Below, piece after piece: positions 19,165 to 63,949 of a stretch of DNA of 64,000 nucleotides. The position numbers were made by a program, and so were the translations under genes. The DNA is from Symbiodinium sp. CCMP2592 (Eukaryota > Sar > Dinophyceae > Suessiales > Symbiodiniaceae): assembly GCA_905221615.1 (NCBI GenBank), contig CAJNDT010000136.1, positions 631,001 to 695,000 of the forward strand, in the 5' to 3' direction. A model generated the notes under the pieces. That model was not told the DNA's origin, did not search any database, and saw only the letters and a program-made list of their open reading frames with translations. Each line of letters starts with the position of its first letter. The stretch's first letter is position 1.

Positions 19165-19626
19165 AAAAGGTAGGTGCAAGATGTGAGACGATTGTTTGGC
19201 TTTCTTAGGCACCCTGTGCTCACCGCTGGGTCTCCCTGAGAAGTGGCCCCGGCACTGCTCGGGGCTCAGGGAACTGTGGCAATGGAAAGCTTTTGAGTAG
19301 CCCCTTTGAACAGGCGGTGCCGAACCTAGAAGAGCTCCCTGCTTACTAGCCTCAAGGTCTCTCAGCTCATGGGGCTTGTATGGTACTCACCTTGTATCAC
19401 CCTAGACCCTGAACCCCAAACATTAAACCTAAAGTCCTCCTTACACCCTTACATGCTAAACCCGTATAAGGCCTTAAATCTAAAATCCTAAGCCATACGC
19501 CCTGTACCACCCAACAGTTGATCCTCAACCCCAAGGCAGGACCCTAAATCCTAGACCTGAGCCCTCAGAAACAAAAACCCGAATCCCACGACCCAAACTT
19601 CCTACAGCTCCCTTAAACCCTTACAG
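19165..19626. repeat. CCCTAAA-type intron tract
   Basis: From about 19395 to 19626 the + strand is rich in CCCTGAACCCC, CCTAAATCCTAG and AAACCCTTACAG words, ending directly at the acceptor of the next exon. Confidence 0.7.
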
Positions 19627-19743
19627 TGTTCAACCAGGTCTGGGAATTCGTGGAAAGACACTCAATAACGAGCTGATCAATCGATCCCAGATCGACTACG
19701 CAGCCGTTGCGCGAGACCTCCACAACCTGTGGGGCCCCCCAGG
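19627..19743 (+). CDS. Exon, unknown protein; CCCTAAA left, TTCAGGG right
   Basis: Acceptor AAACCCTTACAG opens frame VQPGLGIRGKTLNNELINRS then QIDYAAVARDLHNLWGPP. The donor is GTTCAGGGTTTTGGGTTTAA, a telomere-like heptad variant. Strong protein-like composition and both splice borders support it. No domain. Confidence 0.6.
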
Positions 19744-20180
19744 GTTCAGGGTTTTGGGTTTAAGCCTTTAAGCTTTCAGGGTGCATAGTCCCATGTGGCT
19801 GCAGGCTGCGGCTTGAGGGTATGGATTCAAAAGCAGCTTCCATGCTTCCATGCGTCCAGGGGGAGTTACTTGCCTAGTTGGTGAGCAATGAATTCACCTT
19901 CTATAGATGTCCTGTAAGGGTTCTTTCAGGGTTCTGAACAAGAAACTCCGGGGCCCTTGGAGAAGTTTTCTGGGCAAACAGGGTTTCGGATTTTGGGTTT
20001 AGCGTTCGGTGAAGTCTTATGGTCTTATGGCATGCCGGTTCGATATCAGACAGGGGTTCTTTCGATACAAAATCAAGTCGGAGTATCCGAAGGTGTGTAC
20101 CGGGGTTCGTGGCGATTGCACTCGGTGATTACGCTTTGGACAGAAGAAGCAAAGGGGAACACGTGGACCTGAGCTCTAAG
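19744..20180. repeat. TTTAGGG-type intron tract
   Basis: GTTCAGGGTTTTGGGTTTAAG and later GGGTTTCGGATTTTGGGTTTAG words characterise the 5' part of this intron (19744-20010). An open frame at 19957-20172 is composed of these and is not called. Confidence 0.55.
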
Positions 20181-20275
20181 CTGTGAGGTACGTCCGCCAT
20201 GGCGTAATCCCGCCGCCGCTGGGCAGTGACATCAGACGGCAAGCTGAGGCATCCTTCCTGAGCTTCAAGAGACCG
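20181..20275 (+). CDS. Exon, unknown protein
   Basis: Frame RYVRHGVIPPPLGSDIRRQA EASFLSFKRP is bordered by acceptor CTCTAAG and the consensus donor GTAAGA at 20276. Good composition; no domain. Confidence 0.5.
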
Positions 20276-21305
20276 GTAAGATGGGGAGTCAGGATAATCA
20301 CCGTAGTGTTGGGTCCGGCTCCGGAGTTAGAACCTGAGCTGGAATCTGCAGGCAGAAGTTCTGACCAGACGTATTTGGCGAGCAGCAATCCGACCTAGCA
20401 GCAGGTTGTCCTGGCGATGTCAAAGCTACCAGGCAAACCTCTGGATTTTTGGCCTGGCTCTTAGTCCTGTTGGAAGCCACGATACGTGGACCGAGAGCCT
20501 TGGTTCAAAGCTTTGGGGAGGGCGCCTTACCCAGCAATCCTGGCGAGAGAGTGGCAGTTTATGCAAATTCTGTTACCCGGGCGCAGCCAGTGTCTCTGCC
20601 ATGCAGGCGTCATTGGTCGCTGAATATCGCGACCACCACTATGATGGTGCCGATTGACAACTGCAGCGACGATGTTTAATTGACACTGCTGTTGTTGTTG
20701 ATGATGGTGCTTGCGAATGTGTCCTCATGAAAACGTTGGCAGTCGTAGTGATAATGGCCCTGGTTTTGAAATGGTTTCATTAACATTGATGCACATCTTG
20801 AGGGCGCTGATGATGACGATGATGCTGTCCTTTTCCATGAGATGGTGATGGCATTGAAGGTGGCGCTAGCAAAGCTGGTATTGAGGCTTATGACGATGAT
20901 GATGGAGGTATTTGGTACTGGTGATGTCTTCTTGACCGCCACCATCATCAGGTCATTATAAGGGGTGTTAAGGCCCCCTCCCCCTTACCCCCCATAAAGA
21001 TCCCTATGAACCCTGCCTGTCAGGATGTACGGGCTTTCCCGTGAAGCAATGGAAGTCGACCAGCCGGAGCCTTCATGGGCTTCGCGATTGGGGCTCCGCG
21101 GTTTAGAGCTTCGATCTTTGGGACTGCGCACCGGTAGATAAGGCTATCAGCTGTGCATATACACATGTGCGCAACCACATACATGCGTACGAATATGTAT
21201 AAATGTATACATGTATGTGTCTATGTCTATCTGGTCTGAATAGGTATATGTGTATATGTGTAACTACTAGGTTCGTGGCGCATTCCCGCGCGTGGTACAA
21301 AAGGC
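20276..21305. other. Intron or intergenic; GATGAT-rich and TATG-rich patches
   Basis: 20690-20950 is rich in GATGATG/CATCATCA triplets. 21140-21265 is rich in ATACATGTATG words. No exon is supported. Confidence 0.4.
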
Positions 21306-21640
21306 ATGTTCTCAACGACGGACGTGCCGAAAACATCGGCAGGGGTGGGTTTTGAGTATGTCGGGCAAGGCATGCCTATTTTAGGGGGGAGGCTGTTTGA
21401 CTACTTGCTCGCATTGAAAAGGGTCATGGACGTGCAGAAAGCATCGGCAGGGGTGGGTTTTCAGCATCTCGGGCAACGCATGCCTATTTTAGGGGAGACG
21501 CTATTTGACTACTTGCTCGCATGGAACTGGGTGATGGACGTGCAGAATACATCGGCAAGGGTGGGTTTTCAGCAGATCGGGCAATTTTTCCTACATTGGG
21601 GGGCAGGCTGTTTGAGTACTTGCTCGCGAGTAGTTGTTAC
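21306..21640 (+). CDS. Three 108-bp tandem repeats coding a 36-residue repeat
   Basis: The marker GACGTGC begins at 21321, 21429 and 21537, giving two intervals of exactly 108 bp. The frame encodes repeats with SAGVGFEYVGQGMPILGG, SAGVGFQHLGQRMPILGE and SARVGFQQIGQ, each followed in copies 1 and 2 by LFDYLLA. Copy 3 drifts out of frame after GQ (a neighbouring frame restores LFEYLLA), so the third unit carries an indel. An ATG at 21306 could be a start. Downstream the frame runs into simple sequence. No known repeat family (not ANK, TPR, LRR or WD40). Confidence 0.5.
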
Positions 21641-21916
21641 GGAAAGTGGCCTTTTCGTCGTCTGGCATGCAAGCCATTGCGTCACCATGCCGGCTTTGAC
21701 TCCGAATGCGCGGGACGGAGAACGACTCGAGGTGCGGAGTCTTGGGCGTCAATGCATCGGGTTTGGATGGAGACAGTCGAGCTGGGGCGTTTTGGGCTTG
21801 CAGAAGTCCAAAAGCACGGAATCACCCCCCCCCACCCCACCCCACCCCACCCCGAAAAAGTCCCAGAAGTGGCGGAAACTACACGAGCGTGTACGCGCCA
21901 CACTCCAACTACATGT

Positions 21917-22056
21917 ACTGTACGTATGTATGTATGTATGTATGTATGTATGTATGCATGTATGTATGCATGTATGCATGTATGTATGTGTGTATGTGTG
22001 TATGTGTGTATGTGTGTATGTGTGTATGTATGTATGTATGTATGTATGTATGTGTA
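21917..22056. repeat. (TATG)n / (TGTATG)n microsatellite
   Basis: About 140 bp of TATG units with interspersed TGCATG and TGTG variants. Long open frames on both strands (poly Tyr-Val-Cys-Met or His-Thr-Ile) are artefacts of it. A preceding run CCCCACCCCACCCCACCCC lies at 21826-21853. Confidence 0.9.
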
Positions 22057-22059
22057 TTG

Positions 22060-24124: not shown

Positions 24125-24241
24125 GGCCTATGGCTTAGGGAGTAGGGTTTAGGGATTAGGGTTTAGGGTTTAGGGATTAGGGTTTAGGGATTAGGGTTTA
24201 GGGTTTAGGGAGTAGGGTTTAGGGATTAGGGTTTAGGGTTT
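24125..24241. repeat. Interstitial TTTAGGG array
   Basis: About sixteen units of GGGTTTA alternating with GGGATTA and GGGAGTA variants form the purest telomere-type block in the window. It is internal and flanked by unique sequence, so it is an interstitial telomeric repeat and not a chromosome end. Confidence 0.95.
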
Positions 24242-24269
24242 TTCAATCGAGAAGGGTTCCTTGCTTCAG

Positions 24270-27512: not shown

Positions 27513-27622
27513 ATGAAGTTCATGGGTAGTTATAAGTGGGGTTACAAGTAGGGTAACTATAGTTATAGCTCCAATTAGTAGACTTCTAGCCCTGCTTTTT
27601 ACTAGCCATGAATTTTCAAGTA
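27513..27622. mobile_element. Diverged MITE-like family A copy
   Basis: AAGTTCATGGGTAGTTATAA at the left and TAGCCATGAATTTTCAAG at the right form degenerate family A arms around TAACTATAGTTATAGCTCC. Confidence 0.7.
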
Positions 27623-27807
27623 AAGCCCTAAAGCCCAAAAGCCGGAGGCCCCAAACAATAAACCCTGACACCCTAAAACCCTAATGCCTCCCTTTAAGCC
27701 CTACAGCCCCAAACAATAAAACCCTAAAGCCCTAATCCCGTAATCCCTTGAACTCGAATGCTTAGGCCCTCATCGAACCCCGAAGCCCGACGAACGACTG
27801 CCTGCAG
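27623..27807. repeat. CCCTAAA-type tract before a micro-exon
   Basis: AAACAATAAACCCTGACACC, CCCTAAAACCCTAATGCC and similar words run into CTGCCTGCAG, a good acceptor. Confidence 0.75.
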
Positions 27808-27851
27808 GTGTGACGCCGGCCATGGCTTGCCCTGGCACGTCTTGCGATCAG
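27808..27851 (+). CDS. 44-bp micro-exon with perfect borders
   Basis: CTGCAG before and GTAAGAG after, with frame VTPAMACPGTSCDQ. The left flank is CCCTAAA-type; the right flank reads GGCTTTAGGGTTTAGGGGCT. The clean consensus borders and flank polarity make this the textbook example of the exon-island layout seen here. Confidence 0.6.
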
Positions 27852-28207
27852 GTAAGAGTACGGTCGAGGCTTTAGGGTTTAGGGGCTTTAAGGGGCAGGG
27901 TTTCGGGTTTAAGATCTAGGATTTAAGGTTCACGGTCTAGTGCTCTAGGTTGAGGGTAAGAGTTATGGTTTAGCACCTTGGTCTTGAAGGCTGACGATGT
28001 AGGATTTAAGCTTTAAGGCCTCGGGTTCAGATATTACGCCAAAACACACGACACTGAGAACGCAGATTGGCCAGCGGCCTGTCCGGCGCTCTGAAACCGC
28101 GGAGCCTCGTCACAAGCTATCAGAAGCATAGCGACTTCCAACAAGCTAGGATAGGGGCTCAAACAGTTATCAATGCTACTTTGGAAGCTCCTTATCGTAA
28201 CTATGGT

Positions 28208-30730: not shown

Positions 30731-30839
30731 GTGAGTCAATCACGCCTTAAAGCCCATTCTATCCTTCAATATTGAAATCCCTAAAACCCTGAATCTCAAA
30801 TACCCGCAACCCAATGCCGACAGGCCTGTCCCCGTGTTG

Positions 30840-30899
30840 CAGGGCCCCTAAACCCTAAACCCTGAACCCTGAACTCCTAAACCCTGAAGTTTCTACAAG
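30840..30899. repeat. CCCTAAA-type tract
   Basis: CCCCTAAACCCTAAACCCTG and variants, directly upstream of the exon acceptor TTCTACAAG. Confidence 0.85.
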
Positions 30900-30959
30900 A
30901 ATCCACCAGGCAGAGTGAAGGCCGTGAAGGGTAGGCTGTCCGACGTAGTTGGTCAAGCT
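30900..30959 (+). CDS. Short exon, basic
   Basis: Frame NPPGRVKAVKGRLSDVVGQA. The donor may be GTAGGC (30931) or GTTGGGGTTGAG (30960); the second would leave the whole frame. TTAGGGTTTAGGGG tract follows to 31020. Confidence 0.45.
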
Positions 30960-31439
30960 GTTGGGGTTGAGAGTTTATAGGGCATTAGGGTTTAGGGGTT
31001 TAGGGTTTAGGGGTTGTGGAGCTTGGGGAGTTCAACACTACTCGTTCAGAACAAGCGCCAACAGCTTGACACATCAGATGCTTTGTGCAACAATAGTTCG
31101 TTTATACAGGAAGCTTAGCATGAAACTTCATCCGCCGCCTTGCAAGTTGTCGGATAAGAGGCGTTGTGTTGGCCTTGTTCGTAAGTATCGATATACTGCT
31201 TGCGGACCTCAAGTGCTGTGGGATCAGGTCTGTGATCATTATGTTTCTGTCTTCGGGTTGAAGGTTCTAGAACTTGTGCTTTCGGTTTAGTTTTCGTAAT
31301 TGTTGTTTTCGCATGGAGTTTGTAAACCCTAAACCCTAAACCTTTAAACCCCTCAACCCGAAATCCTTAAACCGCTACACCTTAAATCCTGAGCCCTTAA
31401 ACCCCCAAGCCCTAAGCCCCAAACCCTTAACCCTGACAG
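30960..31439. repeat. Intron with TTTAGGG start and CCCTAAA end
   Basis: Starts GTTGGGGTTGAG and TTAGGGTTTAGGGGTTTAGG, has a unique centre (31020-31315), then CCCTAAACCCTAAACC to 31435 and acceptor CCCTGACAG. Centre frame 31085-31290 is open but without borders. A clean example of the self-complementary intron layout. Confidence 0.7.
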
Positions 31440-31514
31440 AAGCAACGCTCCAGAGCGTTGTTCTCCACCCCTTTGGGAGCCAAACATCCGAACATGAGCA
31501 ATGAAACTCGAGAA
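31440..31514 (+). CDS. 25-codon exon, phase 0 at both ends
   Basis: CCTGACAG before, GTAGCTTTAGGGTTCAG after. The frame is KQRSRALFSTPLGAKHPNMS NETRE with no stop. CCCTAAA tract left and heptad donor right. Confidence 0.6.
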
Positions 31515-31839
31515 GTAGCTTTAGGGTTCAGTGTTTAGGATTTCGAGAAGCATTCAATGAACTTGGATGACTATGATTTATGGTGTAATGCTCGAGTAGC
31601 ACATATGGGCTCGCCTTCCATCTGCTCCCCTGAAGTGTTCGATGTGTTGACGGCTTTCTCGAGTTGGCTGTAAAACGCCGTTTCGACTCCAAATTCCTTA
31701 TGCCTGGCGTAAACAAAGCCTGCAGCATGAAGTTGTTGTCCTAAGCCCTCCCAGACCCTGATACCCGCAAGCGCGAAACCTTACACGCCTAACCCTAAAC
31801 CCTAGGTCCTAAAGATCCTAAACCCTACACCCGAAGCTC

Positions 31840-32038: not shown

Positions 32039-32702
32039 GTTTCGAGGTCTTTGGCCCTTAACTAGACCCTAAACTCGTAGGCCACAGATCCTAAACCGTT
32101 AAGCCTTAAATCCCAACCCCGTAAGCCTGAACCCGTGGTCTATGGATCCGGTCTTGGGTGATGGACACCTGGACACCCAAAAGTAGGTGAAAACAATGGC
32201 CCGCAACTAACAAAAGGCCATTATTCTGCGCGCATTTGGGGTCCTGCTTCAGCCGCTTAGAAAGGATGTATGGTTGCAGGCTCAGGCTTTTGTAGCGATT
32301 ACCGGGGAGGGGGAGGGGCGAAGGGTGAAAGGTTTCAGGTGTTCCATGATGTTGTGTGAGTGGCAAGTTGTTGGAGTTAATGCAGGGGGACAGGCAAGGG
32401 ATTCCGCACGCCTTAAGCTGGCTGTTGCTTCAAGTTGCGATTCTTAAGTACACATGCAGGAACTCCGTTTCTGATATAGAGGTCTGAATCGGTAGCCATA
32501 GTATCCAGTGTAGTCCGTTTGCAATCGCACTATACTCCAAACCCCGTTCTCTTCATTAACGCTCCTGCATCAGAACCCTTGGCATATACCATAGTATCCC
32601 TGGTAGGCCCCATGCAGTTACCCTATACTATGCTCTACTATACCCCACTTTACTCTACCATATACTCTACTACGCTATAGACCCTAAACCTTATCTTAAC
32701 AG
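32039..32702. other. Intron stretch with CCCTAAA words and ACTATACT-rich part
   Basis: CCCTAAACTCG to CCCCGTAAGCC at 32055-32130. 32610-32690 is rich in CTATACTCTACTATACCCC words. A weak inverted repeat with ends ATGCAGGAACTC / GCTCCTGCAT spans about 32454-32572. Confidence 0.4.
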
Positions 32703-32753
32703 CTTTGGGTTCTTTGAGGCCTCTGCATCTGCATCGTCGGCTCGGGCGATGAG
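32703..32753 (+). CDS. 51-bp exon
   Basis: CCCTAAACCTTATCTTAACAG before, GTGATC after. The frame is FGFFEASASASSARAM. GT-rich TTTAGGG-type tract follows (32785-32930). Confidence 0.5.
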
Positions 32754-33077
32754 GTGATCTGACGGTTAATCCGAAGTTTTGCGAGGGTTTAGTGGGGTTT
32801 GGGTTTCAGGGTTGAGGGTGGTAGGGGTTAGAGTCAGGGTTTAGCATTAGGATTCTAGGTTTAGGATCCAGGGTTCATTAAAGTTCTGGGTTTAGGGCTT
32901 TAGGATTCAGGGTGTAGGGGTAATGGCCGAAGTCTTCCCGGAGCGAGCGCTTTTGACAGGTCTCGGGGGCAGATTTGCTTGAAGAGGGTTCCTTTCGTGA
33001 TTTTCGGACGGCTTGGGGCTGTGTAGGGCTTGTATAGCTACAGCGCTTAGGAGCCTAAACCCCTAAAGGCGGAACAG

Positions 33078-33624: not shown

Positions 33625-34790
33625 GTCGGGGGATAACAATATTTAGAAATTTAGGTGCCCACTTACCTGCCTATACCATAATTATGGTATACCATACTTT
33701 ACTAGGTTTAGGGACTTAGATCATGGGTACTTTAGGGGCGTGAATAACTAGAATAGGATTCCCTTAAAGGGTTCCTTTAAAAGGGGGTCCATAAGGGTTA
33801 CTATGAGGGTTCTATGAGAAGGAGGCCTTCATAATCAGAGTAGGGTTTTGGGGCCCACTATAAGATAAGTATAATAAGGAACACCGAAATAGTGTAGGCA
33901 ATTATCAAGGCCCCGATAGCATAGGTGCGGGGGTTTAGGGTTCTCGGGCTTTTGGGGCTCTAGCGTTTAGGGGTTTTGGGTTCTAAGGCTTCCAGGGTTT
34001 GCGGTTTTCGGGTTCTGGGGTTTTGGGTTTGCTGTGTAGGACTTTTAGGGTTCAGGGCTTCTAGAGTTCGGGGGTTTTTGGGGTTCTTGGGCTCTACCCG
34101 AAGACCCCAAACCCCTAAAGGAGCTTCTTAGACCCTTATAGAGATCGTGTTAGGATCCCTTTCAGGTTTTGAGGGGAATAAGGTTTGAGGTGGTTTTGGG
34201 GGTTTTGGGTTTGGAGGTCTTGGGTTTAGGGTTTTGTGGTTTTAGGGTCTTTCGCTGAGTCTAGCGACGTAATGTGACTCCCGGGCAAGAACCTTCGCTT
34301 CTTCAGATCTTGCTCGGGCCTTTGCGGGACTTCTCGTCCCGAGTCGTGCTCCACGGTGCAAGATCAACCTAAACCCCCGAACACAGGGGTCTTGCACATT
34401 AAACAAATAGCACTACCCCTGCTTTAGTCCGTATATGAGTATAGTACACCAGAATATGCTCGAAGCCGAATTCTATGCATATCAGGGTCGTTCGTGTGTG
34501 TCTCTGTGTGTGTGTGTGTTTGTCTCTGTATTGCATCGCTAGTCTGAAGACAAATAGAGCTAAGTTTTCGCTGTGGGATTCAGGGTAGTGGGGTTTACCA
34601 AATGTAGGATTGCATGCGCGTGTCTTCGCCCGGGTGGTTCGGTTCCGGGTGCGCGGACCGACCGCTGGCGTGACCCGACGCAGACCTCGAACTTCGAACT
34701 CGAAGCCCCTAAACCCGAAACCCTAAACATCAAACCCTGAACCCGGAACCCTAAACCCGAAAGCCTACACCCTAATGCCTTCGCCCGAAG
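33625..34790. repeat. Long intron rich in TTTAGGG, then CCCTAAA
   Basis: 33930-34100 and 34165-34255 are GGGTTT/TTAGGG/TTCGGG-rich on the + strand; 34100-34130 and 34690-34780 are CCCTAAACC-rich. A possible foldback of family F sits at 33650-33740. The last words run into TCGCCCGAAG, the next acceptor. Confidence 0.65.
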
Positions 34791-34852
34791 CAGCCAACCG
34801 ACTCGGCAGGGACCCTGTGTGACGAGACGACTGCAATGGGCACAGGGTTCCT
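34791..34852 (+). CDS. 62-bp exon with consensus donor GTAAGA
   Basis: Frame QPTDSAGTLCDETTAMGTGF between CGCCCGAAG and GTAAGAGTTTGTAGGG. CCCTAAA tract left, TAGGG words right. Confidence 0.55.
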
Positions 34853-35139
34853 GTAAGAGTTTGTAGGGTTCTATGACAGAGTCCCCTAATAACACTACAT
34901 TTTAAATATCTTTCAACTTTAAACCCCAATATCCCTAAGCCCTACTAGCCTTAACCCTGGGCCCTAACAACCTCAATGAGCCTAATTGCTCTAATAGGCC
35001 CTGTGCCTTCACAATCCCCCCAAAGAACTAGTGAGCCTAAGAACCCTAAACCATAATAATCTTAATAACTGATGACCCTGGTAAGCCTAACGACCCTAAA
35101 CCCCAATATCCCTAAGCTCTTTTGTCGTCGTGCTGCTAT

Positions 35140-41123: not shown

Positions 41124-41874
41124 AAGAAGTAAGGGGTCACCCGTTGCTCATATTTTTATAAGAACTTTGGAAGACTTGTTCTGGTGATGTTGAGCGGGGT
41201 AGAAGCTTTTCAGAGGGTTGAAAGGGATTTATAGATTAGCTTCAGTCGACTTTTGCGGAGCGTCATAAGGTTTTCCATGGCTTTTGCAGGGGCTTTAGAA
41301 GCGTGGTATGAGGGTGTCTTGACTGTAAATTGGCTTGTAGATGACTGTGGCAAACGATTTGTCAGACTTCTAAGGGCCTGAGAAGACTTTCCAAGTGGAT
41401 TTGGGCTAAACAAGGGCTTGTCTGGTTTGAGAAGCATGTTTCGAGGTAGTTCTATACGGTTTCGGAGTTGTTGTCTTGCGTAATCACCATCATAGAACCC
41501 CGTAGACCCCGGCAGGATCTTCATAAATTGCTGTGAAAAACACGTGACGTGAAGACAAAGCTTCCAAGAACCTCGATCCAACGACATTCCGGGCCTTGAT
41601 TAAGATCCCCTGTAGACCTCATAGATCCCGTGTAGAACCTTTATAGATCGCTTATCGAATCCCTAGAGACCCAAAACCCAAAACCCTACACCCAAAGCTG
41701 TACACAAACCCTGAAGCCATCTGAACCCTAAGCCCTTCATCCCTTGTAGAGTCGAGATGGACCCAAAATCCTCAGCCCTAAACCCTAAGACGTAATTTTA
41801 TCCCAAGATCCCTTGTAGATCCCTTCCTTGCAAAACCCTTAGACCCTAAACCCTGAATCCTGGATCCTTTGTAG
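41124..41874. other. Intergenic or intron; CCCTAAA-type words from 41650
   Basis: A minus-strand frame (41210-41587, 125 codons) has no borders or domain. CCCTAAACCC and CCCTTAGACCC words dominate 41665-41865. Confidence 0.4.
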
Positions 41875-41951
41875 AACCAGGAGTGCGAGAGCATCTGCGG
41901 CTACCTGGCTGACGCCATCTTGGTCCTTGCGGATGCGCCTCAGGACCTCCC
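41875..41951 (+). CDS. 77-bp exon with donor GTTTAGGG
   Basis: Acceptor GGATCCTTTGTAG opens NQECESICGYLADAILVLAD APQDL; the donor is GTTTAGGGTCTAGGGG (41952), i.e. the telomere heptad itself supplies the splice donor. CCCTAAACCCTGAATCC lies left. Confidence 0.6.
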
Positions 41952-42134
41952 GTTTAGGGTCTAGGGGTTTGGGGCTTTCAGGGTTTGAGGGTTTTAGGGT
42001 TTAGTGTTTTAGGCTTTAAAGTGTTCGGGTTGAGGATTTTAGGGTTTAGGGTTTGGGGTTTAGGGTTGGCGGATCGGGGCAAGAGGCCCTCTATACCTAT
42101 ATCTGTATCTAAGCACCCACACAAGCGAGATATA

Positions 42135-42467: not shown

Positions 42468-42521
42468 AATAAGCCCTGAAAACCCTAAGCCCAGATTCGC
42501 CCTAAACCCGCACTCCACGAG

Positions 42522-42585
42522 GAGACGCTGACGGTTGCTGCCGAGAAGGGAGCCGCGGCTTGGACCAAGAATCGGAGTCGCTCCG
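42522..42585 (+). CDS. 64-bp exon
   Basis: CCCTAAACCC lies upstream; the frame ETLTVAAEKGAAAWTKNRSR S runs to donor GTAACTTAGGG (42586). Confidence 0.5.
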
Positions 42586-42780
42586 GTAACTTAGGGTCCA
42601 GAGGTTTAAGGTTTCGGGTTTAGGGGTTTAGAAGTTTAGGGTCTAGAAGTTTAGGGTTTAGGGTTTGAAGGGGTTCCGCTAGAGGGGGTTCTATAAATCC
42701 CCGGTCTAAGCCTTAGACCCTAAGCCTGAAACCCTAAACCTGAAACCCTAACTCTTAAACCCTCAACCCCACATTTTTTG
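42586..42780. repeat. TTTAGGG tract switching to CCCTAAA
   Basis: GTTTAGGG/GTTTAAGG words to about 42690, then CCCTAAGCCTGAAACCCTAA to 42780. Confidence 0.8.
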
Positions 42781-43019: not shown

Positions 43020-43204
43020 TCTAAACCCTAAACCGTTAACCTTAAACTCTAAACCTTAAGCTCTAGACCCTAAACTTTAAACCCAGAAAAGACTATGAAC
43101 CCTAAACCCCAAAAAGACCTTAAACCCGAAACTTTAAACCAAAAACCCTAAACCCTAAACCTTAATACCTTAAACTTGAAACCTTAACCCCAAACCTGAA
43201 ACAG
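43020..43204. repeat. CCCTAAA tract before exon
   Basis: CTAAACCCTAAACCGTTAAC and many AAACCCTAAACC, ACCTTAAAC words, ending GAAACAG. Confidence 0.9.
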
Positions 43205-43256
43205 GAGCTCTGGAGGTTCTTTTGCTAGGGGCAAGATTTGATGCAGCGCCGTCGGG
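43205..43256 (+). CDS. 52-bp exon with telomere-like flanks
   Basis: Acceptor CCTGAAACAG opens ALEVLLLGARFDAAPS; donor GTTCAGGGTTTCGGGTTTAG (43257). The residues resemble part of an ankyrin-type hairpin (inference, weak). Confidence 0.5.
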
Positions 43257-43350
43257 GTTCAGGGTTTCGGGTTTAGGGTTTAAGGTTTAGGGTTCAGACC
43301 GGGAATGTAGGGTTCGGTGGGTTTGGACTTGAGCTGGGAGGCTGTAGGGT
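43257..43350. repeat. TTTAGGG tract
   Basis: GGTTTAGGGTTTAAGGTTTA and related words; 5' part of the intron. Confidence 0.75.
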
Positions 43351-43605
43351 TCGGGGTTCGGTCGTAGACTTGTGCTTGTTCAAACTGTCGGGCGTTGGGA
43401 TTTCATCCCACATGTTGCGATGGCCATAAGCCAAGTTTTCCTGGAAGTTCAATTCCGCTTTACACCCTCCGGAACGCCTTATTTCATATGTGAGTCTGTT
43501 GAAGACAGGAGAGCCCAACATTTTCCGGGGTCTGAATAGTTAGCGACAGTATGTCTTGGGACGCGCCCTAACAGGAGCCCGACGGTCCACTCAGAACACA
43601 GATAC

Positions 43606-45850: not shown

Positions 45851-46662
45851 AGACTTTGACTGAAGACTGATGGCGACACGGGAAGCGAGCATGGCTGCGC
45901 CATTGGCAGCAAGAGGCGGCCGCTCGGGGTCGTCCAAAAAAATTCAGACTCCACCCCAAAACCCTACAGTCCAAGAGCCTCGGAGCCCGAAGCCCGAAAG
46001 CCTTAAAACCCTACTGCCTTGGAAAGCCCTAGAACCCTAATGCCCTAGAGCACTTATAGCCGTAGACACTAAAGCTGATTTTTGGAGCCCCTGAGCTCGG
46101 GTTCTAAAACCCAAGAGCCCGAAACCCTGGATTTTCTATGGAACTCCTTAAAAGAGGCAGCTTGTTTGGGTCACAAGTCTGCCCCAAATCTTATACTCGC
46201 AACCGTACGTGCCTCTTGCCTTAACACCAAGCTCCAGCCTGGGAACATCTGGGAACATGCCAGGCTTCCATAACTGTGGCCCGTGAAAACCATCCTTTTT
46301 GCGTGTAGAAGCCATAAAAGGAACCTTGCAAAGGTAGGGTTTTTGGCCGAGCAGCACGCTTTGGCACTTTTCGTTTTGGGTTCCCCAATTAAAACCAAAG
46401 TAGAGATTCGGGTTTTGGAGTTCAAAACTCGTCATTCCCCAACCCTCAAGTTTGACCCAGATGATAAACCCACACCCCTAAACCTGAAACCTTAATGGCA
46501 ACGCCCTAAAAACCCCTTAAACTCCCAATCTTCATTCTTGCAGCTTGAAAATCCCATTGAACCCGAACTCCTGCAAAACCTTGTGCCCGTGACCCTGAAC
46601 CTGCACCCTAGTTCCAAAAATAAACCCTAAACCCCACGCCTTTGTGATTCGCTCACACCGAG
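45851..46662. other. CCCTAAA-type intron or intergenic stretch
   Basis: 45955-46130 and 46440-46640 are CCCTAAACC/AACCCTAATGCC-rich. Minus frames at 46148-46435 overlap unique sequence but have no borders. Confidence 0.45.
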
Positions 46663-46741
46663 GCCTTGGTCCCAGTTTTTGCCGGCACGCCGGCGCCAGC
46701 GGTGCTGCCCGAGCGCGCGCCGTGGTTTGCCACGCAGGCAG
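46663..46741 (+). CDS. 79-bp exon, Pro/Ala-rich
   Basis: TCGCTCACACCGAG before; frame LVPVFAGTPAPAVLPERAPW FATQ; donor GTCTAGGATTTTG (46742), or GC donor GCAGGT at 46738. CCCTAAACCCC left and TTTAGG-type right. Confidence 0.55.
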
Positions 46742-46933
46742 GTCTAGGATTTTGTTGTGGGTTTCGGAGAAGTACAAGAAGGGTTGCTGTGGGTTTTGTG
46801 ATACAAAGGTTTAGGTTTTCAAGGCTGAGGTGCAGTTGTTACGGGGTTGACGGTTCAGGGCCTCGGTGTTTCTTGGGGGTTGAGGGCTTGGGGGTTAGGC
46901 ATTTCAAGATTTCCGGAAAGGGCTTTCGTACAG

Positions 46934-47071: not shown

Positions 47072-48119
47072 GTTGCTGCCTGTCACAACTGCAGAACAGC
47101 AGCAGCTGGTGGCCACATACAGCCCTCCGTGGGTGGGGGCGTCATTATATAATTGCAGACCCGTGATTGAGTGCAGGGCGAACACCAAGGAATGAGTTCC
47201 GGTGTGGCCACAAGGGCGTCCTTGCCTGGGCAGGCGTCACGCTGCGGGCAGAGAGTCCGAGATGCAAGGCACGAGCAGCTGAAGGGTGTGCAAAGCTTGG
47301 ATTAATATTATAGGATCTTAAAAATAGTTGCCAATACTGTCTTGGGGGTTCCTTATTACTAATTAGTTATAGTTATATATTGTATGCCCTACTCCAAACT
47401 TTACATTATTTTTTTGGGGGTGCTTGTTGAACGGAGAGATTTTCTACAACCCACGCCCTACGCCCTTTACAGCCCTTGAAGCCCATGCGCAAAAGCCCAC
47501 AACCTTACATAGATTCGAAAGCCCTCAACCATAAAGCCGGTAGCCTGAAGCCAAACCTCAAGCCCCACGGCCTGGAAAGGCATCATAAGCCCCCTGAGCA
47601 TTGCGCAGACTGACGTCATGCTGGTGTTAGGGTCGGAAGATGAACCACAGCTCAGGAACTCTGCTAATCGATTTTGGACCCTGCAGCAGACTCAAAACAC
47701 ATGTTCGATACCCCTGAAAAAATGATCCGAGTCTTCTTCACCCTGGAAACGCTTTCTACGATCCAGTTCAAGACACCCATCCCGAACCCCAAACCGTGAA
47801 CCCTAAACTTCAAACCCTGAACGCCCCACTCAAACCCTAAACTCCAAACCCTAAGCCCAAACCCTCAACGCAAAACCCCAAGCCCCACACGCTTCAGGGA
47901 ATCCTTACAACTTACGGGAACTTTCAAACTCTCAAAATCAAAGGCCTCCATGGACGGGATGAAGGTAGGTGAGGTAATCCCCAATAAGAGTCTTTTTAAA
48001 GGGATCCTTAATCGTACTGCCTTTGAGGCTTCCAACAAAGGAATCCTCATCCCTATCACCCAGAGGAGCCCTTCTTACGAGCCCTTCAAAGAACCCAAAT
48101 CCTAAGCCTTCCACCGAAG
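47072..48119. other. Intron or intergenic; CCCTAAA-type tracts and F-like element
   Basis: 47300-47400 resembles family F (TTGGGGGTTCCTTATTACTAA). CCCTAC/CCCTAAACTTCAAACCC words run at 47450-47590 and 47780-47890. A weak micro-exon candidate follows GCATTGCGCAG at 47629. Confidence 0.45.
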
Positions 48120-48178
48120 CTCTCGGTGGGGAGGAGCAGTGGCAGCTACTCCTCGACCCCGTGGCCCCAGTGGACAAG
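48120..48178 (+). CDS. 59-bp exon
   Basis: Acceptor CCACCGAAG opens LGGEEQWQLLLDPVAPVDK; donor GTGCCCC (48179). CCCAAATCCTAAGCC lies left and GGGTTTAGGG (48307-48325) right. Confidence 0.55.
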
Positions 48179-48370
48179 GTGCCCCTTCGGGCTTAGGATG
48201 TTTGAGGCTTCATGCTTTTGTCTATCGTTTGACCCCAAAGCCCTGTGCCTTCCCAGTTTGCAGCTTTACTTAAACGCCTCAGGGCTCAGGGTTGTGGGTT
48301 GTTAGGGTTAAGGGTTTAGGGTAAGCGCGGTTGTAAGTGCAGCTTCGTGTGTACTGTCTGCTTTTGGTAG

Positions 48371-54726: not shown

Positions 54727-55624
54727 AAAGCCACGCGCATCCACGCAATGCTATAGCACCCTTTAGCACCCTGCATTTAGCCGAGTTGTTTTCCGAGAGC
54801 CACTGTTTGCCCAAAGCCCGACCACCATCGGCCTTTTTCGCCGACAGGGCTTTAAAATTTGGGCTTTGGGATTCCAGCTTCGGGGTGTCTGAGGGTTCAA
54901 GTTCGTTTAGCGATTCAGGGTTCGGAGTTTGGGGTTTAGGGGTGCCGGGAATGAGCTCATGTTTAGGATTCAAATTCATCGGTCACCAAATTCATCAGTC
55001 ACCAATCTGAAAGCTCAGTTCCTATTGGCCCAAGCTCATCCAGGTAGGGGTGTGTTCACGCTGAGTTGTTTCTAGATTGGACTTTTCGTTTGTATTGACG
55101 TGTTTCTGTTGCGGTCGGCAGGTCTCTTTGAAAGTCTTTATTGGTGGTGCATTGTTTTAATATGTGTCTTCATTTGCCTTGTATCGTCCTTATGTGGCTT
55201 TTCCTGTCTTGAGTCTTGAGTGTCCTTAGTTACATTTGTTGGTTGGATCTTTACATGGCATCAAGAGGATCTGACTCTCAATCGTAGTGTCATTGTAATG
55301 CCAAAAGATTTGCCACAAATAATGATATAAAAAAAAATGACAGATCCAATATAATCATAGTAGTAATCATAATGACAATCATAGCGTTGAGAATACCGAG
55401 AAGTCTTCAGGAGTGAAGGCTTCATGGCAGCCCCGATGTGGAGCCTGCAGGGTTCTAGCAGCCCGAAGCCAAAACCCTTAGCCCATATAAACCCTACCAA
55501 GCCCTGCATCCTGCACTTTGAACCCTTCACCCTCAGAGCCCTAAGCCTACAATCCTAAACCTTCTGCCCTACACGCTTAGAGCGCTAAACCTTCAATCCT
55601 AAGCTTTGCGCCCTGCACCCTTAG
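54727..55624. other. Intron or intergenic; mixed tracts
   Basis: 54900-54945 GGTTCGGAGTTTGGGGTTTA words; 55495-55624 CCCTAC/CCTAAACC words. AATCATA-rich AT patch at 55320-55385. No exon supported. Confidence 0.4.
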
Positions 55625-55728
55625 AGCCCTACCCGAGAAGGCCGTTGCCGAACCTGAGAATTGCGACGAGCTCTGCTATGCCGATCCGGACGCGGACAGG
55701 CAGAAGTGCCGGATCGCTCGGGCTTGGG
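55625..55728 (+). CDS. 104-bp acidic exon; donor is GTTTAGGGTTTAGGG
   Basis: CTGCACCCTTAG before; the frame is LPEKAVAEPENCDELCYADP DADRQKCRIARAW. The intron starts GTTTAGGGTTTAGGG (55729). Three Cys and many acidic residues; no named domain. This is the cleanest case in which consecutive telomere heptads begin exactly at the splice donor. Confidence 0.6.
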
Positions 55729-55752
55729 GTTTAGGGTTTAGGGTTTGGGGGG
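55729..55752. repeat. TTTAGGG units at intron start
   Basis: GTTTAGGGTTTAGGGTTTGG GG directly after the exon. Confidence 0.9.
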
Positions 55753-56730: not shown

Positions 56731-57391
56731 GTCCCAAGCCCATCTAAACCCTGAACCACAGAGCCCTCAAGCCCGGAGCATCAAGAGACCCTGTTTGAAC
56801 CCTCATCCCATGCAGCCCTGGTCTTAGATCCACAGTATCTAACCTGTAACTTTTTGGGTTCTTATGGTTTAGTAGGAATCGGAAAGTTTAACCTTTCATT
56901 TCTGTGGCGTACTGGGGTAGTAAGTGGTACAACCCAACATACGCAGGCGCCGGAACAGTCACCATTTCTATCCCTTGACCATGATATAGTCCGGAAGCCA
57001 CATTGCAGTAGCTCATATAGCCTTCCTCAGAGAAACCCTTTAAGAATAGATATCGCTTTGGAATGAGTGTTAATGTTTAATGGAGAGCCTAGTTTAAACA
57101 GTTTTGGGCAGTGTTGAAATCGACACCTGGTATAGTAACATTCATAGTGACCCTTAAAGTAGCTCCCAAGGGAGCCCTTCCAGAACCTTGAAAGGAACGC
57201 TAGCCGCTAAATCCGGAGCACAGACCCTTCTTCATCTATTATCTGCTATCTCCTATCCCGGACCCAAAATTATATTCCGGCCCCTGCCCCTACGCCCTAA
57301 GCCTTAAGCCCTAACCAAACCCTGAACCCTAAACCGTAAAAATAGAAGAAATCCCAATGGGGGGAAGGCGCTTAAACAAAAAAACGTATAG
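56731..57391. other. Intron stretch
   Basis: CCCTGAACC words at 56740-56830 and 57280-57345. Frame 56854-57066 has no borders. AAAAATAGAAGAAATCCC precedes the next exon. Confidence 0.4.
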
Positions 57392-57473
57392 CAGCCGAAG
57401 GTGGGCCCAGCTCGCCGAGACTGGCGCGAAGCCTCCGCCCGACGTAACGAAGGGGAACCTGCCTGGGGGCTCA
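57392..57473 (+). CDS. 82-bp exon
   Basis: Acceptor ACGTATAG opens SRRWAQLAETGAKPPPDVTK GNLPGGS; donor GTTTGGATTTGGGG (57474). A second frame (QPKVGPARRDWREASARRNE) is also open. CCCTAAACCG left, GGGGTTTTAGGGG right. Confidence 0.55.
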
Positions 57474-57625
57474 GTTTGGATTTGGGGTTTTAGGGGTTTT
57501 AGAGGTTTCTAGGGGTTTAGGGTTCAGGATTTTGGGTTTAGGGTTTGGGATTTAGAGCTCAACAAAGGTTCGAAGTTGTGTTTGCAAGCTGTGGGGAACA
57601 GTGCTGTTGGGTTTAGGGTCTGGGG
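57474..57625. repeat. TTTAGGG-type intron start
   Basis: GGTTTTAGGGGTTTTAGAGG and GGGTTTAGGGTTTGGG words. Confidence 0.8.
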
Positions 57626-57640
57626 TTTAAGTTGCACCTA

Positions 57641-57747
57641 TAGTCTCCCTTTAGTTCCTTGTCTTTGTTAACCAAAATCTCAATTATAGGGTCCTAACCA
57701 TAAAATTGGCTAACCAAAAAAAGGAACTACACTGGGTACTATAGGTA
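57641..57747. mobile_element. Inverted repeat element, family H
   Basis: Ends ACCTATAGTCTCCCTTTAG and GTACTATAGGT, inner TTAGTTCCTT / AAGGAACTA and GTTAACCAAAA / GGCTAACCAAAA. Confidence 0.7.
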
Positions 57748-58590
57748 GGGTCATTTCGATTCTCTCGCTCTCCCCAGCCTCGGAGATCCCCCCCTGGGGC
57801 TTGCGGTTTTAGGATTTAGGTCTTGACATTACACGAGATCCATGATTATGGACCCCTGTTTCTGATGCCCTTAGGACCATTTCATGTTATGTGCCATCTT
57901 GACCGTATTAAAGTTTCAGTTCATGCTTAAGGTTTTAGGGCTTCCATCGTTGAAGGTTTCAAGTTGAAGAGTTGAGAACGTTTTGCCAAACATCGGGACT
58001 TTCGGTGTTTTAGATAAGGGTTCCCTAGGGATCAGGGTTCACCCAGGCCAAGTCTAGGATTCGTGTATCAGTGTGGTTATGATTCTTCTGCGGTCTGGGG
58101 CAGTGATCATACTCAATATTGCTATTTAAGTTCTGCAGCTGAAAATTCTTTAATGAATCTGTAGCCGACTCGTGTTTTCTCCCACGGCCACCACTAGTTT
58201 TTGTGACTGCGCTTTCATCCTACTACTTCTCGTTCAGCATGGCACTGCTTGCTGTGTTTAATACTGTGTTGCGACGATGGTTGCTATTGCCACCATAAAT
58301 CTGTAGGGCTTCGGGTTCAGGTTCTGAGGACCTGCGACACTACGGACTCGGTGGGTGCATGTCAGCTGCTCGAAAACTCATTCCTGTGTTTGTCCCATCT
58401 CTGCAAGATTGCCATTGTGCTGCCAGCCGGATGCATGTTGACCCGAATGCCCGTTTGCTACTGCTTGGAGATTGACACCAAACACCTTGGAGTCCGTGGC
58501 CTTGAGGCTGAAGTGTGATTCGTCTGACCCACTTCGAGGCCCTTGGAGCAGTAGAACCCACCGCAATTTACTTGGCCTCCTCAGACCGAA
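57748..58590. other. No supported gene
   Basis: Frame 58249-58518 (CysLeu-rich) and overlapping minus frames lack borders. GATTTAGG and TTTTAGGG words are sparse. Confidence 0.35.
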
Positions 58591-58700
58591 CTTGGAGGTT
58601 CATGGGTATTTATAAATAGGGTTATGAGCGCCCTAATAGGACTTATAACTATAGTTATCCTAGTTATAACCCCATTTGTAACTACCCCTGAACCTCCAAG
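58591..58700. mobile_element. MITE-like family A copy
   Basis: CTTGGAGGTTCATGGGTATT and TAACTACCCCTGAACCTCCA AG. AT-rich centre TTATAACTATAGTTATCC. Confidence 0.9.
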
Positions 58701-59880: not shown

Positions 59881-60750
59881 GACGAAGGTATAATATGTAT
59901 AGTGAGTAATTCGTAACATTCTCTTTTTATGGTCCTATACAGCCATAGCAGAGAGTTGATCGACTCCGATATACAAAGATCTCGAAAATGCGGTTCCAAT
60001 GTTTGAGGCCCGTGTTGTTTAGAAACGTGTTGAGATTTGACGTTTAAGACCTTTACTTCTCCCGAATCGTTGGTGTGGATCATGGTGCGGGGATTTGCGT
60101 CTGTGGTGAAAGCGGGACAATGATGAGCATGAGAGCTGCTAGTAGCTAGGAATCCGATGCCCTGAAACCTAAACCCCCATCCATTCTTGAATTATGGTTC
60201 CCGGTAGACAGAATGTTTCGGTTGATGTTCGGGCTCTTGCTTGTGTTTCTTTTCTGAGCTCCATGTTATGATGACTTCTGTCATATGCATGACTCTCACT
60301 ACAGTCATTTCATCCCTTGCTACGTTCCATTATACTCTTAAGCCCTAAATCCTCAAGCCATCAACCCTGAAACTCTGAAGCTCGAACCCTAAGACCCCCG
60401 CATGCTATGCCCGTATGCCGAAGTAAGAGCTGGATACCTAAAGTCCCCAAAAAAACTCCGACAAAGACCTGTCCCGAAACCCTGTTCTGTTGATTAACAG
60501 TTCCCCTGAACAGTCCTCACATAGCACACCAAAAAACACTTTTGTCGAAAACCGTCAATCTGTTGAACCCTTCAATACCCATCGAACCTTTCAAGAACCC
60601 CGTTCAAGAAGCTTTACAGTTACAGAACCTAGCAAAAATTAGTTCCCGCAAATCCACCACAGAAACGTGCGTGCATCCCTTCAGACACGGGTGAGGCTCC
60701 CTAAACCCCAAACCCGGAAGCCCTTGCATATCATATCCTAAGCCCTAAGC
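59881..60750. other. No supported gene
   Basis: A minus frame 59793-60083 overlaps the AT repeat. CCCTAAATCC and CCCTGAAAC words at 60340-60410. Confidence 0.4.
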
Positions 60751-60925
60751 CCTTAAGAAGAGCCCTTAAAGGAGGCCCTTAAAGGAGACCCTTATAGGAG
60801 CCCCTAAAGGAGAACCCTTATAGGAAGACCCTCTTATAGGAACCCCTTATAGGAACCTTAAAGGAACCCTTAAAGGATTCTAAAGGAGCCCTTATAGGAA
60901 CCCCTTCTAGGAGCCCCTAAATGGA
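60751..60925. repeat. Tandem repeat of about 15-18 bp, CCCTTATAGGA type
   Basis: About ten units such as CCCTTAAAGGAGG, CCCTTATAGGAGC and CCCCTAAAGGAGAA. The unit contains a CCCTTAAA/CCCTAAA core and is partly self-complementary (CCTTATAGG). Confidence 0.85.
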
Positions 60926-60954
60926 GCCCCGAAGCCCCGATCTCTAGAAAGCAG

Positions 60955-61012
60955 AGGATGGACGTGAACATCGGCGTGGACTTCGAGATGCCCAGCAAGG
61001 CACCCAAAGAAG
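60955..61012 (+). CDS. 58-bp exon
   Basis: TCTCTAGAAAGCAG before; frame RMDVNIGVDFEMPSKAPKE; donor GTTTCGGGCTGTAGGGG (61013). CCCTAAA-type array left, TTTAGGG-type right. Confidence 0.6.
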
Positions 61013-61400
61013 GTTTCGGGCTGTAGGGGTTTAGGAAGTTTAGGGTTTATGGATTTAAGGGCTTAGGATTTTTGGGGGTTTAGGGGTCTTAAGGATTTAT
61101 GGTTTAGAGGTTTAAGGGTTTTCGGGTTTGGGGGTTTAGGGGTTTAAGGTGACCCAAACAGGGTGTGATACCAACGGGGCAGCCCGAAATGCTTGGGCTT
61201 TAGAGTAGCGGCTTTAGGGGATCATCGTGGGTTTGGGGCTTTGCGGATGGTATTTGGTTTGGGGTCTAGTACGGGGTTTCGGGGACAATCTCGGGGTGAG
61301 GTTTAGGGGGTAATCTTGGGTTATTGGGTTTACGGTTTCGGATTGAGTTTAGGTTTCAGAGTTTAGGGGATAATACGGGGCTCGAAACATCGGCAATAGT
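61013..61400. repeat. TTTAGGG-type intron tract
   Basis: GGGGTTTAGGAAGTTTAGGG, GGTTTACGG and TTTAGGGGATAATACGGGG words. Confidence 0.8.
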
Positions 61401-62526: not shown

Positions 62527-62540
62527 GATCCGCTGTGCAG

Positions 62541-62616
62541 CTCCCAGGCATCACCCTGCCAGAAGAGGCTGAAGAAGCGCCTGGGCTCTCTTGGAAAGGC
62601 TCCACAGTCTCCAGAG
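62541..62616 (+). CDS. Exon between two family C elements
   Basis: GCTGTGCAG before; frame SQASPCQKRLKKRLGSLGKA PQSPE; donor GTTCCC (62617). Very basic. MITE copies lie immediately on each side. Confidence 0.5.
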
Positions 62617-62625
62617 GTTCCCTTT

Positions 62626-62698
62626 ACTTACCACTGGTTAGTAGGGAATGGTTATATTTGCACCCCATTCCTCCATTCCTTACTAACCAAAGGTAAGT
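62626..62698. mobile_element. MITE-like family C copy 3 (shorter)
   Basis: ACTTACCACTGGTTAGTAGG and CTTACTAACCAAAGGTAAGT arms with a reduced centre. Confidence 0.9.
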
Positions 62699-63438
62699 TT
62701 AACGGGTTTTTTTGATTTGAGGTTTGAGGGATCTATAGGTTTTAGGTTTAGAGATTTAAGGGTTCAGGGGTTTAAGAGTTTGAGGGCTTTCGTGTTTGGA
62801 TCCCGTTATGCTTTGGGTCGGTAGGTTAGGCGACACACTTTCGCAGCAATGCCTGTCACAGACAAGGCACGAGACCCCTCCCCCTCTTTAGGGTTCAGAG
62901 CTTAGGGTTCACGCTTCAGGGTTGAGGGTTTGGGGTGAAAGCCGCAGGCATGAGCTTAAGGGAGGTGGGGGCTCAAGTGGGAGGGGATTCTATAACCCCA
63001 CATCCCATAAATTACCAATACCGTTTTGGGGGTTCCTTGTTAGAATTATAGTAGAATACACCTCCCGCCCCCTCTCACAAGGAAACCAATGAAACCAATT
63101 CGAGTTGTTAAGGCCTGTATATCTACAACCGTAAAGCGACCCTTATTGTTTGCGGCGGAGCATGCGAAGCCATCCAAAATGACAAGTATCGAAAAGTATC
63201 GAATGTGTAGTGTCGACAAACCCAGGCCCCATGACAGTCGCTTCTGTATAGAAGTCCCTTAAAGTAGCCCTTTCAAGGAACCCTTTTCGACGATTGCCTT
63301 GAATCAGGTCCCTATATTACCTTTCTTCAGGCCCCCCCTAGACTACCCTTCTTCAGGCACCCTTATAAAACCCCCTAGAATACCCTTATTGAGGCCACTT
63401 TTGTATCCTGTTCGAAATCTGAGGGCCCCTATTAATTC
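62699..63438. other. TTTAGGG-type words and family F-like element
   Basis: TTTAGGTTTAGAGATTTAAG at 62740-62770 and GGGTTGAGGGTTTGGGG at 62920. An F-like stretch (CCGTTTTGGGGGTTCCTTG, then GAGTTGTTAAGGCC) spans about 63005-63115. No exon supported. Confidence 0.45.
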
Positions 63439-63533
63439 GGTTGATGATATATCCTGCATGACCCATAAGAAGGAATATACCATAATTCCCATAGTTTAGG
63501 GTCCTTAAGGTAATGCAGGATTTATACCACCAA
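63439..63533. mobile_element. MITE-like family D copy 3
   Basis: GTTGATGATATATCCTGCAT, AGGAATATACCATAATTCCC and ATGCAGGATTTATACCACCA. Same orientation as copy 1. Confidence 0.9.
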
Positions 63534-63563
63534 CCGTTACACTCTTTCCGGATTTTGTCTGAG

Positions 63564-63621
63564 GCCTTGACTCAGCCCCGCCGCTCGCTCTTCGGCCGCC
63601 TCCTGAACATTGAAAGGGGCA
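63564..63621 (+). CDS. 58-bp exon
   Basis: TTTTGTCTGAG before; frame ALTQPRRSLFGRLLNIERG; donor GTTCTC (63622). TTTTAGGGTTTAAG follows at 63644. Confidence 0.5.
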
Positions 63622-63949
63622 GTTCTCAAAAGTAGGGCACCCTTTTAGGGTTTAAGTTTTAGGAAATTTTAAGGGAATAGGGTTAAAACGGTTTGGGGTT
63701 ACATGATTATGGCAGATTCAAGTTCTCTAAATTTGGTCTTGTTTTAGTCCCATGACGCGGGTCTTCGTGGCTTAGGGCGGGGTCACTGAAACTTGAGTCT
63801 TCGCGGTGTTTAGAGGTGTAAGGCTTAAGGCTTGGATTGTGTAGACTTTACCATTTGGGAGGCTTCGGGGCATGGGATGCATCAGGGTTTCATCGGCAAT
63901 GAGGACGTTCGAGTTTCAGTGTTGAACAACGTTTAACCCGCCTTTGCAG

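Follow-up and report, generated by a model that had tools for sequence, protein, structure and literature searches.

Telomere-type repeats tend to point outward from exon-like segments in Symbiodinium sp. CCMP2592

The 64-kb stretch of the Symbiodinium sp. CCMP2592 assembly at C136:631001-695000, called here the window, raises the question of whether the orientation of telomere-like heptads is tied to the borders of exons and, if so, how such an arrangement could have arisen. Traits in keeping with a symbiodiniacean dinoflagellate are a GC content of 50.5%, ankyrin-repeat genes, a GA-AG intron and the repeat unit TTTAGGG. This heptad is reported as the telomere unit of dinoflagellates in the accessible text of PMC11453091 and, judging from those other species, would probably be the telomere unit of this organism as well. 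CCCTAAA-like words are named C-type and TTTAGGG-like words G-type, and the favoured orientation is C-type to the left and G-type to the right of an exon-like segment. Many exon-like segments tend to be flanked by degenerate telomere repeats that point outward, each segment resembling a tiny chromosome. The initial annotation had proposed that heptad orientation follows exon-like borders; this was seen on both predicted gene strands and across the genome.

Orientation of telomere-type repeats in the window and the genome

Telomere-type words are abundant. The window contains 90 copies of TTTAGGG and 78 of CCCTAAA, against an expectation of 6.5 to 7.9 for each, a more than 10-fold excess. The heptads sit in degenerate blocks of tens to hundreds of bases, chiefly between 19 and 64 kb of the window, where TTTAGGG is 10.7-fold above expectation and its best single-change variants 4 to 5-fold (maximum 4.8), as decaying arrays would give. 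Over the whole assembly of 1.098 Gb (1,098,105,373 bases in 5,383 contigs), (TTTAGGG)x3 was found 73,488 + 75,164 times (overlapping matches included), so that tandem copies of the telomere unit lie inside chromosomes, as in interstitial telomeric sequences.

The outward polarity around exon-like segments is confirmed as real and holds genome-wide. Ordered pairs were counted over the whole genome without any exon list, overlapping matches included, as CCCTAAA-gap-TTTAGGG (C-to-G) against TTTAGGG-gap-CCCTAAA (G-to-C). At gaps of 90-120 nucleotides (nt) there are 62,925 C-to-G and 35,487 G-to-C pairs (ratio 1.77), and at 300-330 nt 111,982 and 60,791 (1.84). The preference is reversed at gaps of 20-50 nt, too short for most exons (17,554 vs 23,885; 0.73); the two longer ranges leave room for an exon. 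Control words made by reading the heptads backwards gave counts of 326 to 878. Within 114 kb, exact heptads gave 11 C-to-G against 11 G-to-C pairs at 90-120 nt and 21 against 10 at 120-150 nt, while variant heptads gave 163 against 80 and 229 against 98, respectively.

The same polarity was found around segments chosen by codon usage. A codon table built from 2,140 codons, taken from the ankyrin gene and from matches to myosin and kinase, yielded, with heptads masked, 77 codon-scored segments in 95 kb, made up of 45 kb of the window and 10-kb stretches of contigs C1, C2, C3, C14 and C25. None of 1000 rotations reached the observed polarity for all 77 segments (score of at least 6), and stricter cut-offs gave p values of 0.006 (at least 7, n=59), 0.019 (at least 8, n=36) and 0.045 (at least 9, n=28). 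In the window alone the rotation p was 0.006 (at least 6, n=25), 0.066 (at least 7), 0.083 (at least 8), 0.153 (at least 9) and 0.69 (at least 10); in the 50-kb sample outside it, 0/1000 rotations reached the observed value at a score of at least 6 (n=52), and p was 0.002 at a score of at least 7. Repeat density at 0-50 nt from the 77 segments was 0.063 in the favoured orientation (confidence interval 0.039-0.090) and 0.013 in the unfavoured one (0.006-0.022), against 0.032 and 0.031 at 200-400 nt and 0.030 and 0.035 at 400-1000 nt. Thus, within 50 nt the favoured orientation stands at about twice its distant level and the unfavoured one at less than half of it, and the bias is strongest less than about 200 nt from coding-like segments. 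In a sign test on 154 flanks the favoured type dominated in 55, the other in 30, and 69 were undecided (p 0.009); the left flanks contributed 20 vs 19 and the right flanks 35 vs 11. When flanks were assigned to the sides of predicted genes, favoured and unfavoured bases numbered 626 vs 271 on the acceptor side and 750 vs 276 on the donor side, and both strands agreed.

Telomere-type words, not intron composition at large, carry the bias, because masking the heptads removes the skew. Outward GC skew at 0-50 nt was 0.077 in the raw sequence; masking exact words lowered it to 0.035, and masking one-mismatch heptads to 0.018. At 0-100 nt the 95% interval after one-mismatch masking was -0.021 to 0.031. 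A general G/T versus C/A skew of introns was rejected on these grounds.

Exon-like segments, coding character and a kinase intron

The exons of the window are exon-like segments, called from composition and open frames. The initial annotation had listed 17 that fit the pattern and two exceptions (24270 and 46934). Around these 19, the left 200 nt hold 586 repeat-covered C-type bases and 177 G-type bases, 124 of the latter belonging to the two exceptions, and the right 200 nt hold 479 G-type and 78 C-type bases. Their summed polarity of 810 was reached by 0.1% of 5000 rotations (mean 5.6, standard deviation 160, maximum 826). Since the list was compiled with the pattern in view, this result checks only the accuracy of the description. 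Most listed exons do fit the polarity, although the list was picked by eye and four rows are weak: 23480 (left flank 6 vs 6 repeat bases), 26809 (left flank 33 vs 20), 34791 (right flank 0 G-type and 42 C-type) and 48120. The blocks are as follows, with the strand given where one was assigned.

19399..19762: C-type 19399-19621, exon-like 19622-19740, G-type 19741-19762; codon-scored segment 19661-19735, plus strand
24135..24258, plus strand: G-type array of 15 copies left of listed exon 24270, an exception
27626..27973: C-type 27626-27735, exon-like 27736-27870, G-type 27871-27973
30779..31012: C-type 30779-30885, exon-like 30886-30984, G-type 30985-31012
31323..31539: C-type 31323-31434, exon-like 31435-31519, G-type 31520-31539
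32539..32904: C-type 32539-32690, exon-like 32691-32783, G-type 32784-32904
34707..34870: C-type 34707-34775, exon-like 34776-34843, then short G-type with C-type soon after it, so that the right flank is a partial exception
41674..42067: C-type 41674-41854, exon-like 41855-41951, G-type 41952-42067 from a putative donor; codon-scored segment 41875-41949, plus strand
42480..42666: C-type 42480-42509, exon-like 42510-42590, G-type 42591-42666
43021..43351: C-type 43021-43161, exon-like 43162-43260, G-type 43261-43351
46605..46815: C-type 46605-46634, exon-like 46635-46758, G-type 46759-46815
48105..48322: exon-like 48105-48210, G-type 48288-48322 on the right, left flank without repeats
55472..55746: C-type 55472-55591, exon-like 55592-55726 (plus-strand frame, weak EGF-like match), G-type 55727-55746
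57295..57820: C-type 57295-57335, exon-like 57336-57484, G-type 57485-57820
60699..61368: C-type 60699-60921, exon-like 60922-61026, G-type 61027-61368

The sequence between C-type and G-type blocks has some coding character. The first 45 distinct C-to-G places with gaps of 90-120 nt on contig C1 were compared with the first 41 distinct G-to-C places over positions 31-80 of the gap by one-sided tests. The C-to-G places have a higher GC content (0.567 vs 0.489, p 7e-5), a better codon score (p 0.015) and more stop-free frames out of six (3.71 vs 2.88, p 0.007). The codon score also favoured C-to-G among 20 and 20 hand-picked loci (p 0.003, in a selected sample). Genome-wide, CAGG where an acceptor would be expected, 8-34 nt past CCCTAAA with TTTAGGG 50-80 nt beyond, was counted 14,453 times, and its permutation GGCA 7,453 times; the background CAGG/GGCA ratio over 114 kb is 1.29. 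These counts bear only indirectly on an AG|G acceptor after the C-type array. Seven window segments were searched in six frames against Pfam, 40 of the 42 frames being rescanned singly, and the sole placeable match was EGF-like at 55592-55726 on the plus strand (E 8e-4, below the cut-off). A Pfam scan of 138 six-frame pieces from 23 C-to-G segments (16 of the 20 fetched C1 pieces plus the seven window segments, without a G-to-C control set) yielded weak matches to three families, of which two fell on 55592-55726. The best match of the joined window peptides in the PDB had an E value of only 0.23, and searches of Rfam and of a viral collection gave no matches.

Homology-defined exons permit a closer view. 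The clearest homology-supported case is a kinase intron of 173 nt (L038:287-459) with borders GA...AG|G, which lies inside the HRDLKP motif. Eleven CCCTAAA-type units in register make up its final 77 nt. Nine of the units are AACCCTA or one change away from it, and the last unit, AACCCAG, provides the acceptor AG in register with the telomere units. AG|G is the dinoflagellate acceptor, and this is the one homology-supported intron in which it was found directly after a C-type array. The intron is one-sided, the array being present at the 3' end only, with no G-type word at the start. Its borders read AGA|GAC...CAG|GAC, so that GAC stands at both as a 3-nt repeat, in this single case. The exon starting with DLKPDN lies in a kinase match of 120 bits. 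Read across the intron, the peptide RYLHVTMNLVHR|DLKPDN... aligns with Pkinase 112-134 (E 3.3e-6, 27.1 bits, below the cut-off of 31.7). Adding a further upstream exon through a guessed junction extends the match to Pkinase 82-134 (E 1e-9); that exon alone has no Pfam match. AG exclusion upstream of homology-defined borders was not seen, these borders being imprecise.

Several observations weigh against this picture of polarised exons. The 19 strongest coding segments (score of at least 10) have no polarity (p 0.34). Segments found with a backwards-read codon table (n=52) still give flanks of 328 vs 291 and 427 vs 177, which indicates that much of the exon calling follows from GC-richness and that GC-rich segments are generally flanked in this way. 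Only two of the 20 fetched C-to-G loci, and one of the 20 G-to-C loci, exceed the 95th percentile of the codon score of random window pieces, and the window shows no significant difference in GC content between 24 C-to-G and 15 G-to-C gaps (p 0.086). Over 114 kb, CAGG after CCCTAAA (21) trails its permutations GAGC (28) and AGGC (25), and GGCA is the one permutation that was counted genome-wide. Among 70 flanks hand-chosen from 25 myosin and 137 kinase matches, 43 carry fewer than 12 repeat bases within 400 nt (27/70 carry at least 12). Polarity at these flanks is weak: the left 0-200 nt hold 176 C-type against 74 G-type bases, and the right 0-200 nt are contrary, with 82 G-type against 122 C-type bases. 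Much of the contrary value comes, on inspection, from locus L045, where a C-type array lies in a short intron, close to its 3' end, and is followed by the next exon-like segment, which has no homology support, and then by a G-type array. Because so few myosin and kinase flanks carry repeats, the polarised repeats concern a subset of introns.

Pairing of intron ends and origin of the repeats

The two ends of an intron carry complementary words, and the initial annotation had suggested that they could pair and thereby bring donor and acceptor together. This part of the proposal is not supported, as neither own-end specificity nor co-occurrence of the two arrays was found. The complementarity score was 30.8 for own ends (n=14) and 29.8 for the ends of other introns (n=196), and 19% of permutations reached the own-end mean; across one exon it was 27.8 (n=15), against 17 to 18 in random sequence. 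The excess over random sequence is therefore due to the shared repeat and not to a private match of own ends. The amount of G-type repeat at the start of an intron is uncorrelated with the amount of C-type repeat at its other end (rho -0.02, n=15 neighbouring pairs, from 16 of the 19 listed exons, without 23480 and the two exceptions, neighbours being taken as consecutive), and the ends are not copy- or family-specific inverted repeats as those of introners would be. Folding gave a mixed outcome for the expectation that introns pair end to end beyond their shuffles. Of the seven listed introns, six were folded, leaving out one of more than 1,700 nt; as a set they lie above 30 of 36 shuffles, but only one of the six beats all six of its own shuffles. 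The best figure is that of intron 42591-43161, with 71 expected pairs against 4-21 in shuffles, and some extra end-to-end pairing must follow from complementary words in any case. When four stretches were folded to find the partners of the arrays, expected pairs numbered 26 to 65 within introns, 0 to 93 across exons and 0 to 49 past exons, depending on the stretch; two of the stretches held one exon only and so offered no rival partner. A model in which complementary ends form a stem that joins donor and acceptor, with the polarity selected for that stem, draws on the set of six and on intron 42591-43161, but five of six introns fail against their own shuffles, arrays pair also across or past exons, and the ends neither match specifically nor co-occur; it is thus very improbable. 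Own-end pairing was rejected, being neither specific in scores nor preferred in folding.

Read outward from the exon, either strand gives TTTAGGG from 5' to 3', as at a chromosome end. We tentatively suggest that in a subset of introns telomere-type repeats were made end by end at the intron ends by telomerase-type healing, and that the wrong orientation was removed. In this scheme, DNA broken at or inside introns would be healed by telomerase-type extension of free 3' ends and then rejoined, and some rejoinings perhaps created the intron itself. Wrongly oriented arrays near splice sites would be removed, in part since each TTTAGGG carries AG|G, and the arrays would later decay while other elements insert between them. 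Addition at ends combined with removal near splice sites is favoured because the two ends are independent and the favoured orientation is enriched, not merely spared. An extension is that telomerase wrote the intron ends themselves: breaks inside coding sequence or beside it would have been healed by telomere addition and rejoined, and the joined telomeres would have become the intron. Each exon would then still resemble a fragment with telomeres on both sides, but we regard this stronger version as unlikely. Telomerase-type healing is our preferred but unproven source of the repeats: no break, telomerase step or intron-gain event was seen, and healed and rejoined breaks predict back-to-back G-to-C arrays, of which the excess at gaps of 20-50 nt is only 1.36-fold.

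Two alternatives remain serious, a splicing filter alone and decayed introners. Under the filter, simple repeats of telomere type would arise anywhere in non-coding DNA and in either orientation, only one orientation being tolerated or useful near splice sites; this is doubtful, though well worth keeping in view. G-type units, with their AG|G, would be purged before the acceptor, and G-type words near the donor or C-type words near the branch site may help recognition. The depletion of the unfavoured orientation near segments to less than half its distant level, the enrichment of CAGG between C-type and G-type blocks and the independence of the two intron ends all agree with a filter. A filter alone does not give the favoured orientation at about twice its distant level, and outside one-mismatch heptads GGG is barely above CCC (0.0127 vs 0.0112 at 0-50 nt). 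Decoy acceptors alone were rejected as the cause, since they leave unexplained why polarity is as strong on the donor side as on the acceptor side. If the source were introner-like transposable elements whose terminal inverted repeats were telomere-like and are now degenerate, each such intron would be a former insertion, and the inverted repeats would yield the observed polarity by construction. The accessible parts of two papers describe terminal inverted repeats and 4-bp duplications for introners of Symbiodinium microadriaticum (PMC9860276) and place introners in 5% of Effrenium genes (PMC11114475), and GAC stands at each of the two borders of the kinase intron. That same intron is one-sided, however, the complementarity of own ends does not exceed that between ends of different introns, G and C masses are uncorrelated, and no common sequence was seen by eye beside the window arrays, a comparison made with no computed test. 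Decayed introners therefore seem an unlikely source. Telomere-capped linear DNA inserted as introns would be expected to have the opposite polarity, and as a general source it was set aside as unlikely.

There is also the view that the pattern is a product of the eye and of strand composition, introns beginning G/T-rich and ending C/A-rich and exons being chosen to fit. The list of window exons is post hoc, the left flanks alone fail the sign test (20 vs 19), homology-defined flanks are weakly biased and, within the window alone, significance is reached at no score cut-off above the lowest. But the whole-genome counts made without an exon list largely refute this view, masking the heptads removes the skew, and the independent 50-kb sample retains the polarity at a score of at least 6 (0/1000 rotations, n=52). 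We consider it the least probable of the explanations.

Other elements of the window and known systems

Several other repeats were found in the window. At 35141-35472 there is a TTTAGGG-containing higher-order repeat with 12-, 24- and 96-bp units built on GTTTAGGGTTCC. A palindromic element resembling miniature inverted-repeat transposable elements, with ends CTTGGAGGTTCATGGGTAGTTATAA and arms 76-92% complementary, is present at 27531-27622, 29992-30083, 42353-42471, 43959-43999 and 58591-58700; a search of the viral collection with a 21-base piece of it gave no exact match. Inverted-repeat elements of the TGGTTGTCAAAATTATGGTCCC and CTTACCTTTGGTTAGTAGGGAATGG types lie at 42137-42170, 44278-44311 and 50973-51065 (arms 91-94% complementary). 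Nested tandem units of 11/22/55/165 bp (TGAGAAGTCTC) fill about 1 kb at 14148-15223, and a minus-strand open frame at 14170-14991 encodes a repeated SQRLLRDFSQTSHRL-like peptide. An ankyrin-repeat gene is located at 52801-54094 (Pfam Ank_2, E 1.8e-34 over 52801-53388), with a 92-bp tandem duplication at 53891-54071 (97% matching). Pfam searches of ten window open reading frames and of two X-read frames of 40-55 kb gave nothing beyond ankyrin repeats.

If verified splice sites agree, telomere-type repeats carry information on exon position and strand across a gigabase genome. If true, the arrangement either exposes intron gain through telomere healing or shows splicing shaping the orientation of repeats, and it offers a cheap marker for small exons where genome annotation is difficult. 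The initial annotation knew of no description of an orientation tied to splice borders, and none was found in open PubMed Central text, as represented by titles and the beginnings of abstracts, subscription papers lying mostly outside it.

Interstitial telomeric sequences include remnants of head-to-head fusions, in the order TTTAGGG...CCCTAAA. They share the repeat unit with the arrays described here but differ from them, as here there are very many short degenerate sites at exon-like segments. The TBE transposons of the ciliate Oxytricha are mobile DNA with terminal telomere repeats that point outward from the element; here the polarity of the intron is the opposite, and it is the exon that looks capped. 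Fluorescence in situ hybridization in Karenia found interstitial telomere signals to be rare, according to the accessible text of PMC6395649. The introners of Amoebophrya, as far as the accessible text of PMC7789003 describes them, are similar in that intron ends of a dinoflagellate form complementary inverted repeats, proposed to join exon borders, with inverted repeats of 8-20 nt and direct repeats of 3-5 nt at the borders. Unlike these, the introns of the window carry degenerate telomere heptads over 100-200 nt, have no own-end specificity and are one-sided in the checked case. The introners of Symbiodinium microadriaticum (PMC9860276) are comparable as elements that bring new introns into a related alga and carry terminal inverted repeats; they are set apart as sequence families with 4-bp target duplications.

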